Shown here: piece after piece, positions 6,877 through 40,747 of the stretch
Layout of the letters: each line of letters begins with the position of its first letter
How positions within the stretch are numbered: the first letter of the stretch is position 1
Assembly (NCBI GenBank): GCA_025965195.1
Contig: JAOPXK010000007.1
Location: 1 to 47,269, forward strand
DNA from: Marmoricola sp.
GTDB lineage: Bacteria; Actinomycetota; Actinomycetes; Propionibacteriales; Nocardioidaceae
Direction: 5' to 3'
Length of the DNA stretch: 47,269 nucleotides
The notes under the pieces: generated by a model
The model's database searches: none
What the model was told of the DNA's origin: nothing
Seen by the model: only the letters and a program-made list of their open reading frames with translations
Program-made: the position numbers and the translations under genes

Positions 6877-6909
6877 GACTGATTCCTTTCGGTTGGTCGT
6901 TGGCGTGTT

Positions 6910-6975
6910 GGATAGTCCGAGACGTTCTGGCCCTGATTCGGGTCCTCCAAGGGGCCATTTCGTCTCGGACTATCC
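6910..6975 (-). terminator. 15-bp perfect inverted repeat after the reductase stop
   Basis: GGATAGTCCGAGACG (6910-6924) is perfectly repeated in inverse at 6961-6975, one base after the reductase stop codon; TGGCCC/GGGCCA inside extends the fold. No T-run follows, so it may be a partial terminator, an RNA-stabilising or processing hairpin that sets reductase/desaturase ratios, or a pair of operator sites. The choice is open. Confidence 0.5.
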
Positions 6976-6976
6976 G

Positions 6977-38841: not shown

Positions 38842-38858
38842 CCGGTTGGACGTGCACA
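38842..38858 (+). repeat. Outer inverted repeat, left copy
   Basis: Seventeen bases ending in GTTGGACGTGCACA, inversely repeated with one mismatch at 39880-39896; 14 of them are a perfect match. It lies 8 bp after the metalloprotease stop. Confidence 0.75.
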
Positions 38859-38901
38859 GGCCCCCCACTCTGCGCCCGGTTGGGCCTGAGGTCGCGCTCT
38901 T

Positions 38902-38913
38902 CTGCACGTTCAG
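38902..38913 (-). repeat. Inner inverted copy at the left end
   Basis: CTGCACGTTCAG, related to the reverse complement of the outer motif; it overlaps the DUF559 stop codon and pairs with 38845-38858. Confidence 0.6.
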
Positions 38914-39773
38914 ATGGTCAGCGGGCCGGAAACCGCTTGGTCAAGGCATTCGCGCACGTAGTCGGGGCGCAACATCACGTGCTCCCAGGAGAACCGCAAG
39001 ATCCTCCAGTCGCCGAGCGTGAGCTTGTTGTAGCGCTCGCAGTCCTGAACAAGCGCGCCTCGCTTGCCATGGAACTCAAACGAGTCCGCCTCGATCACCA
39101 GCCGACGTCCTACGTCGACAAGGTCGGGCTGGACGACCTGCCAACCGAGCGCCACTGAGCGCTGGGGTTCGACGTCGAGTCCGCGGACATCGAGGGCAAT
39201 CGCTCGGAGAACGGACTCGAACGGGTTGGCCGCGCGGGAGTCAGCGGCCAGCGCCACCCTCCGCGCGCACGCGCTACCCGGCCCGGCGAGCGCAGCGGCG
39301 ACCCGGACCAGGTCGTTGCCCGTGACCGCCTCGTGCCGCAGCGCGGAGTCCGCAACGGCGAGCGCCTCGTCGAACGGCAGCGTCAACGCGCAGTCAAGGA
39401 CCGTCCGTAGCGGCGAGGTCACCGGCCCGACCAGATCACCAGCTCGCAGATTCCGCCAGCGCAGGTCGACCCCATCCCGGCGATCCGCGTCGACCTTGCG
39501 ATTGCGCGGCACGATCACACACGGCGCTTCGGGCTGCCACTTCAGCTGCCAACCCCAGTGAGCCGCCGCACTCAGGTGCGACACGACACCCGTGAGACGA
39601 TTCGCCGCACGCAGCGCTTCGGAGGCGGTGGGCAGGGCGTACCTACCTTGGGTGTCCCGGATGACCTCGCCCCGGCGCACCGCTCGGCGCAGTCGGCCCC
39701 GCGGGACCAGACCAGCCAACTCACGAGCAGACGCGACTCCACCCAGACGGCCGAGCGCTTCGGTGACTTCCAT
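38910..39773 (-). CDS. AbiEi-like helix-turn-helix plus DUF559 (Vsr-like nuclease) protein
   Basis: A 287-residue protein. Residues 1-50 resemble the winged-helix of AbiEi-type antitoxins (GGVASARELAGLVPRGRLRR); a middle region follows; residues about 195-275 form a DUF559/Vsr-type PD-(D/E)xK nuclease with QPDLVDVGRRLVIEADSFEF and the later WRILRFSWEHV. Such proteins are numerous in actinobacterial genomes and often mislabelled as type IV antitoxins; no toxin gene is adjacent. A defence, mismatch-repair or homing role is possible. It lies within the inverted-repeat box. Confidence 0.8.
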   Translation of the reverse strand: MEVTEALGRLGGVASARELAGLVPRGRLRRAVRRGEVIRDTQGRYALPTASEALRAANRLTGVVSHLSAAAHWGWQLKWQPEAPCVIVPRNRKVDADRRDGVDLRWRNLRAGDLVGPVTSPLRTVLDCALTLPFDEALAVADSALRHEAVTGNDLVRVAAALAGPGSACARRVALAADSRAANPFESVLRAIALDVRGLDVEPQRSVALGWQVVQPDLVDVGRRLVIEADSFEFHGKRGALVQDCERYNKLTLGDWRILRFSWEHVMLRPDYVRECLDQAVSGPLTI

Positions 39774-39824
39774 GCGTCATTGGTGCCCGGCCCGGACCCC
39801 CGAACGCAGCATCCACAGGATCAT

Positions 39825-39838
39825 TTCAACGTGCACAA
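39825..39838 (+). repeat. Inner inverted copy at the right end
   Basis: TTCAACGTGCACAA pairs with TTGTGCACGTCCAA at 39879-39892, with one extra base, forming a hairpin upstream of the DUF559 start. Confidence 0.6.
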
Positions 39839-39879
39839 GCGGCCACGAAGGCGGGCGCCGTGAACGCCCTCGAGCTGGT

Positions 39880-39896
39880 TGTGCACGTCCAACTGG
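39880..39896 (-). repeat. Outer inverted repeat, right copy
   Basis: TGTGCACGTCCAAC plus three bases; inverse partner of 38842-38858. It ends 6 bp before the stop of the neighbouring oxidoreductase. Confidence 0.75.
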
Positions 39897-39901
39897 TCCA
39901 G

Positions 39902-40747
39902 CTAGCGCAGGCCGAGCTTGCCGGCGAGGCGCTCGAGGTAGGCGAGGACCTCTTGCTCGGGCTTGTCGGGCAGGCCGTAGACGCATTCGGTGACGCCGAT
40001 GCGCTCGAGGTGCTCGATGCGGGCGGGATCGGGCTTGCCGCCGAGCGCGACCACCTCTGGTTCGCCGTCGCGACCGGCTTCGTGCCAGAGCTTCTGGAGC
40101 TGCGCGACCTGGTCGTCGATCTCGGTCTCGTACGGCGTGGTCAGCCAGCCGTCGGCCGACTTCACGATCCAGTTGAACGTCTTCTCGGTGCCGCCTGCGC
40201 CGATGATCACCGGGATGTGCGCCTGGGCGGGCTTCGGGTAGGCCCAGCTCGGCCCGAAGGAGACGTAGTCACCGTCATAGGCCGCCTCCTCCTGGGTCCA
40301 GAGGGCTTCCATGGCCTCGAGGTACTCGCGCAGCACGGTCCGCCGCATGGACGGGGGTACGCCGTGGTCGCCGAGCTCGTCGGTGTTCCAGCCGAAGCCG
40401 GCGCCGAGCGTGACGCGCCCACCGGAGAGATGGTCGAGGGTCGCGATCGTCTTGGCGAGCGTGATGCAGTCGGACTCGACCGGAAGCGCGACGGCGGTGG
40501 CCAGCCGGATCTTCGAGGTCACGGCGGCGATGGCCGCAAGCGTCACCCACGGATCCAGCGTGCGCAGGTACCGGTCGTCGGGCAGCGACGAGTCACCGGT
40601 GGTCGGGTGGGCGGCATCGCGGCGGACCGGGATGTGGGTGTGCTCAGGCACGTAGAACGTGTCGAAGCCGAGGTACTCCCCTGCCTTTGCGGCGCCGGTG
40701 GGCGTGATGCCCCGATCGCTGGTGAAGAGCACGAGTCCGTGGCGCAT
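39902..40747 (-). CDS. Luciferase-like (LLM class) probable F420-dependent oxidoreductase
   Basis: A 281-residue TIM-barrel flavin/F420 enzyme. Recognisable segments are GFDTFYVPEHTHIP, KIRLATAVALPVESDCITLA, LDHLSGGRVTLGAGFGWNTD and the late HIPVIIGAGGTEKTF. Actinobacterial members of this subgroup usually use coenzyme F420. Its ATG overlaps the stop of the upstream reductase (ATGA), so the two are coupled. The shared control region holds a KstR-type box, pointing to steroid or lipid metabolism. Confidence 0.87.
   Translation of the reverse strand: MRHGLVLFTSDRGITPTGAAKAGEYLGFDTFYVPEHTHIPVRRDAAHPTTGDSSLPDDRYLRTLDPWVTLAAIAAVTSKIRLATAVALPVESDCITLAKTIATLDHLSGGRVTLGAGFGWNTDELGDHGVPPSMRRTVLREYLEAMEALWTQEEAAYDGDYVSFGPSWAYPKPAQAHIPVIIGAGGTEKTFNWIVKSADGWLTTPYETEIDDQVAQLQKLWHEAGRDGEPEVVALGGKPDPARIEHLERIGVTECVYGLPDKPEQEVLAYLERLAGKLGLR

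Follow-up and report, generated by a model that had tools for sequence, protein, structure and literature searches.

We propose that proteins of a family combining an AbiEi-like part with a Vsr-type nuclease part probably recognize a palindrome specific to their own locus and copy or move it to new intergenic places. A broader formulation, for which we judge the odds to be slightly better than even, is that these AbiEi-Vsr nucleases nick and spread their own palindromic elements of 65–100 bp in actinobacterial chromosomes. They would thus constitute mobile DNA unrelated to transposases and a convergent counterpart of REPIN/RAYT, in which the specificity of the arms usually switches at about 40% protein divergence. 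Three arm types (termed A, B and C here) also exist as solo copies, which lie mostly between genes and fall into one or two narrow length classes per type. An earlier, sequence-only reading of this DNA had likened the locus to a one-gene mobile or homing cassette. The spreading unit appears instead to be the palindrome, because solo palindromes exist and because, in three related genomes, the type B gene has kept a single syntenic position.

The locus that gave rise to this analysis lies in a 47,269-nucleotide stretch of DNA from Marmoricola sp., referred to below as the window. Its features are as follows.

38910–39773, minus strand: AbiEi-like plus Vsr-type nuclease gene, encoding a 287-residue protein
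39240–39773, minus strand: AbiEi-like part, predicted to bind DNA (residues 1–178)
38913–39239, minus strand: Vsr-type nuclease part (residues 179–287)
38846–38913, no strand: downstream palindrome, 68 bp; arms at 38846–38859 (plus) and 38900–38913 (minus), 54 bp apart
39825–39892, no strand: upstream palindrome, 68 bp; arms at 39825–39838 (plus) and 39879–39892 (minus), 54 bp apart
39812–39818, minus strand: CTGTGGA box, about 45–48 bp upstream of the nuclease start codon

The neighboring DUF6055-like and luciferase-like genes are both directed toward the nuclease gene, and the gap between them consists of palindrome, nuclease gene and palindrome. The downstream palindrome begins 12 bp beyond the end of the DUF6055-like gene (38833). 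The luciferase-like gene has its stop codon at 39902, and the upstream palindrome ends 9 bp away from it. All four arms are related to TTGGACGTGCACAA, and the two palindromes have the same size and arm distance. The 17-bp inverted repeats that the sequence-only reading had described as enclosing the gene are indeed present (38842–38858 and 39880–39896; 16 of 17 positions match), and the outer arm of each palindrome is a member of this pair. The additional opposite-facing copy reported for each end also exists, but only in imperfect form (TTCAACGTGCACAA at 39825–39838 and CTGAACGTGCAGAA at 38900–38913 on the minus strand). One of these inner copies overlaps the stop codon, as had been noted: positions 38910–38912 fall inside the right arm of the downstream palindrome.

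The 9-mer GACGTGCAC occurs exactly twice in the window, compared to an expectation of 1.3, and is therefore not unusual by itself. The informative feature is rather the presence of four related arms in two palindromes of the same size. The four-arm score of the locus (68 of a possible 84) was exceeded in none of 400 dinucleotide shuffles (mean 46.2, standard deviation 1.9, maximum 53); together with the predicted fold of the protein, this score upholds the description of an AbiEi/Vsr-type nuclease gene boxed by palindromes. The window arm is not enriched in the genome that carries it (62 matches vs. 94 for the reversed control). Since the window palindromes are not dispersed, and their arms are imperfect while the architecture is present, the window copy is likely a quiet or dormant member of the family, or one that has not spread so far. 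Thirteen relatives have conserved the DUF6055-like gene and its other neighbor; neither the nuclease gene nor the luciferase-like gene was found beside these in those relatives, within flanks of at most 1.5 kb, two of which were shortened by contig ends. This comparison yielded no precise empty site for the window segment.

The window contains a further 68-bp palindrome at 6909–6976, located between genes as far as the open reading frames show. Its 15-bp arms (one mismatch) are 53 bp apart and share the 13-letter core GATAGTCCGAGAC, of which no exact copy exists in 399 fetched loci.

The window protein scored just below the Pfam cut-offs for both MTES_1575 (24.2 bits; cut-off 38.2) and DUF559 (20.0 bits; cut-off 20.6). 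Its predicted fold comprises a Vsr-like nuclease part and an AbiEi-like N-terminal part. Among 33 aligned family proteins, MTES_1575 was found in 31, DUF559 in 30, AbiEi_4 in 11 and AbiEi_1 in one; no transposase family was found among these 33. Residues E186, D217, E228, H235 and D244 are invariant in all 33 and are presumably catalytic. The family is large: of 7998 candidates that were scored, 4209 proteins reach E ≤ 1e-10; the names shown among its best 120 members are very-short-patch-repair endonuclease, DUF559 or hypothetical protein.

We examined the flanks of family genes at 110 loci, comprising L001–L035 from the genus and order and 75 named loci; 107 of them gave a match. L036 was excluded as a second fetch of the gene in L019. 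After filtering for length and flanks, 95 genes remained, including that of the window (L015, L017, L022, L028, L032, L033, L035, L127, L129, L130, L140 and L141 were dropped). The own-flank score of a gene is the best ungapped match between its upstream and downstream flanks, and a score of at least 15 was counted as a match. Such a match was present in 60 of the 95 family genes vs. 6 of 192 control genes, which were neighboring genes from the 75 named loci (Fisher test, 9e-30). The removal of near-identical proteins (> 90%) left 58 matches in 92 genes, and mismatched upstream/downstream pairs reached a score of 15 in 2.4% of 2168 cases. The threshold was missed by 35 of the 95 genes, among them the window gene, which falls slightly below it (14.5; 9 of the 192 control genes reach 14); some typA-linked genes have a downstream palindrome only. 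Of two matching copies, the upstream one is usually located some 70–150 bp ahead of the start codon and the downstream one around the stop codon.

The sequence-only reading had suggested a search for the window motif next to other DUF559 genes. The exact motif is absent there, but many homologues have an arm of their own that is matched on both sides of the gene, and for this reason the literal absence of the motif elsewhere is misleading. The exact motif is thus local, and the architecture of flanking palindromes is family-wide. Another element of the upstream flank, CTGTGGA, is present in 78 of the 95 homologues, with 69 occurrences at −50 to −41; in the same orientation, it is found in none of the 95 downstream flanks. 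Four upstream flanks have it extended to TGTGGATAAC, which we take to resemble a DnaA box.

The arm sequence differs between loci and, as judged from flank comparisons, tracks the protein sequence. In these comparisons, the upstream flank of one gene was matched to the downstream flank of another at a score of 15. Such cross-gene matches were found in 26 of 3327 pairs with protein identities below 40%, in 37 of 3110 pairs at 40–45%, in 24 of 1437 at 45–50%, in 10 of 294 at 50–55%, in 2 of 55 at 55–60%, in 36 of 83 at 60–70%, in 27 of 42 at 70–80% and in 15 of 24 at 80–90%. Below 50% identity, this amounts to 87 matches among 7874 pairs, and between 50% and 60% to 12 among 349. Overall, 43–64% of pairs above 60% protein identity match, vs. 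1–4% below.

Dispersal was followed for arms of several homologues. With a strict Terrabacter-type pattern, one gene's own copy was found in one of eight genomes, and no dispersal was seen. The tie to mobile DNA that the sequence-only reading had suspected is likely. The exact type A pattern (ACATGCGAATGTCGC arms) occurs at 19 places in 7 of 24 genomes of the genus, and its reversed control at none. All 19 places measure 65 bp, with 50–80 bp allowed, and 11 of them sit in 10 fetched loci (4–7 kb) that lack a family gene. A covariance model built from these 19 places, which counts most places on both strands, found matches in 15 of the 24 genomes (28 in G021, 22 in G024, 20 in G007, 18 each in G006 and G008, 14 in G001 and 2–10 in nine others) and none in the other nine. 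Where its matches are weak, as in G012 and G027 among others, they may represent different palindromes.

The nuclease gene lies between type A copies on both sides in G001, G006, G007, G008, G021, G022 and G026; in G000, the readable side has a type A flank and the contig ends on the other. Solo copies and gene flanks in G007 have arm variants in common. No type A-flanked gene was found in G024, which has 11 type A places; its assembly is 92% complete, and the matching gene may be absent from it. A close family gene that is readable in G024 (L380, C55) has no type A flanks. In G010, too, a clear type A copy is not accompanied by a type A-flanked gene. To the eye, type A copies seem to gather around the gene in G006, G007 and G008, and some form close doublets.

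Type B arms (GACGCGCGGACACAAGT, at most two mismatches) number 24 in G010, 26 in G003 and 18 in G002, for a total of 68. The other 14 of the 17 genomes searched contain two lone arms (G000 and G021), with none in 12; the reversed control yields 0–4 per strand. The arms make up 34 palindromes, of which 28 are solo and 6 flank the gene (two per gene in G002, G003 and G010). Arm distances are 62–64 in 24 palindromes and 73–74 in 10. None of the 17 genomes has type B copies without a type B-flanked gene, a link that is partly circular because a genome lacking arms cannot have an arm-flanked gene. In all three genomes, the gene occupies the same syntenic place, and its region is 71–75% identical between them, vs. 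79–89% in the flanks. The solo sites, by comparison, are rarely the same: among the fetched loci, only two (five loci) are common between genomes. By a GC3-based ORF heuristic, 27 of the 28 solo copies are intergenic (14 between tandem, 8 between convergent and 5 between divergent genes), and type B copies often lie closely behind stop codons. In G002, arm letter 10 is altered both in solo arms (13 of 14) and in flank arms (3 of 4), vs. none of 50 arms in G003 and G010.

The genome G009, which is mostly 89–95% identical to G010 at the compared loci, lacks the type B palindrome at all five sites checked of the ten solo sites in G010. Three of these absences are clean: 49 vs. 175 nucleotides separate the aligned flanks at L249, 18 vs. 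130 at L251, and about 118 bp are missing at L255. The site at L247 is shorter in G009 (36 vs. 109) and possibly holds a remnant, and that at L248 has a different palindrome in place of type B. The palindrome at L255 is also missing in G003, suggesting a gain in G010; at L251, a counterpart is present in G003, and loss in G009 is therefore equally possible. For the G009 sites as a whole, we infer gain rather than loss. The G009 copy of the type B-linked nuclease is frameshifted near residue 183 and is 77% identical, vs. 93–94% in its flanks; this genome has no type B arms and another, whole family gene elsewhere (L006).

Other repeats occupy some of these places. At about 720–890 of L323 in G009, a different palindrome with GGTTTCCCAGGTGATGAACCC arms, possibly of another family, lies at the place of a G010 type B copy. 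In G002, two places orthologous to G010 copies (L268 and L291) hold other repeats with inverted parts, and these intergenic positions could be hot spots.

Type C arms (GTCCCGACCGACAGGACATAGT) were sought in 31 Kribbella genomes with at most one mismatch to the 15-letter arm. G065 has 195 (100 and 95 on the two strands), half of which gives about 97 copies, and G014 has 67 (33 and 34); the remaining 29 genomes have 0–11 per strand vs. 1–9 for the control. We read 23 type C palindromes in 20 loci: 19 measure 100 bp and 4 measure 88 bp. These loci were chosen by exact 15-letter arms, which in part accounts for the uniformity of the 15 letters. Seven further arm letters were subject to no selection beyond a limit of three mismatches; across 46 ends, six of them never vary and the seventh does so in a few. 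The spacer is variable, and outside the arms conservation drops within two bases. The G065 nuclease gene lies between two nearly identical type C copies, and two copies likewise enclose a family gene in G063, a genome with a few type C copies.

At the ends of the dispersed copies, no target-site duplication is seen for types A, B or C, in agreement with what the sequence-only reading had reported for the window locus. Over 26 offsets, the two ends of a type C copy never share a 6-mer (23 copies); shared 6-mers occur in at most 1 of 34 type B copies and at most 1 of 46 type A copies. Shared 4-mers at one offset in 9 of 46 type A copies are expected from the self-complementary GTAC ends of the arms. 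An insertion sequence or MITE with a DDE transposase was rejected as a candidate on the basis of these ends.

Passages of two reports (PMC2817692, PMC3116915) tie RAYT to REP by flanking repeats, scattered copies, co-variation, fast gene evolution and dependence on the cognate gene. The REP/REPIN plus RAYT systems (REPtrons), as those passages present them, resemble the present elements in that a single gene lies between its own palindromes, two inverted arms are separated by a spacer, repeat and protein co-vary, and the gene evolves faster than its neighbors. Their many solo intergenic copies have a parallel in types A, B and C, not in the window arm or the Terrabacter-type pattern, and the abundance of copies where the cognate gene is present is matched here in part. 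In contrast, RAYT is described there as a Y1/HUH tyrosine transposase (PF01797), whereas the window family has AbiEi-like and Vsr-type parts. REPtron repeats carry a GT(A/G)G head, and no such head appears when the ends of types A, B and C are pooled into a consensus; also unlike REP/REPIN, the present elements are about 65–100 bp long, with arms of about 15–22 bp. The system is thus not a REPtron, its enzyme being unrelated to RAYT, but by analogy it would work like one.

Three other systems bear comparison. Homing enzymes have a target that becomes disrupted by the insertion. The homing endonuclease I-Bth0305I (EDxHD family) and Vsr differ from the present case, in which matching palindromes stand on both sides of the gene and solo copies exist. 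TIRtrons (TIRYT), from what part of one report (PMC3733652) relates, also have a gene between long inverted repeats, some in moderately abundant families; their enzyme is of the same Y1 class as RAYT and not an AbiEi-Vsr nuclease. The AbiE type IV toxin–antitoxin system has the N-terminal fold in common with the present proteins, and likely also binding to inverted repeats (PMC7319586), but here the AbiEi-like part is joined to a nuclease part. An AbiE toxin–antitoxin pair was rejected for the window locus: no AbiEii (DUF1814) toxin gene is adjacent, and the neighbors match luciferase-like and DUF6055 proteins.

From these comparisons, we infer that the nuclease mobilizes the palindromes. As a dimer, the N-terminal AbiEi-like part would bind the arms in double-stranded DNA, the Vsr-type part would nick or cut at the palindrome, and host repair would insert the freed or copied element elsewhere without target duplication. 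In line with one alternative of the sequence-only reading, the palindromes may be sites that the nuclease itself handles.

Could the palindromes instead be operators, through which the AbiEi-like part represses its own gene and, via the solo copies, others? AbiEi proteins autoregulate via inverted repeats in their own promoters, as one report states (PMC7319586), the upstream palindrome is positioned where an operator could be, and nearly all solo type B copies are intergenic by our heuristic. This explanation leaves the second copy around the stop codon unaccounted for, and spread fits better with 195 arms in one genome and with 8 of 28 copies between convergent genes. The species-specific places and the absences in a close relative likewise favor spread. 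We consider operators unlikely as the whole explanation; self-regulation may occur alongside spread.

A different enzyme, e.g. a Y1 transposase, might also move the palindromes, with the nuclease gene merely situated between two copies. Our comparison of genes with copies covered the nuclease family, whose role as the mover is putative, and G024 has type A copies with no matching gene found. However, each of the three arm types, which are unrelated to one another, agrees with the flanks of a single subtype within one nuclease family, and the flank sequence tracks the nuclease sequence; a rider gene would need to meet every new palindrome family afresh. An outside mover thus seems improbable, to about the same degree as operators. 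Bidirectional transcription terminators are a very improbable account of the flanking hairpins: the good RNA folding of type A copies and the frequent position of type B copies closely behind stop codons would suit them, but a terminator could do without arms that are alike on both sides of a gene or throughout a genome, and it would need neither a rigid length nor a tie to a nuclease.

If mobilization by the nuclease is correct, a likely function would emerge for its large family, and the spread of elements credited in other bacteria to one enzyme family would have an unrelated counterpart. REP-like repeats without a known transposase would acquire a candidate enzyme class; CGTC palindromes are one case in which a dedicated transposase is reported to be missing (PMC3733652). 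Because each gene brings its presumed recognition sequence on both sides, the specificity of binding or cutting would be directly testable, and many protein/target pairs could be compared.
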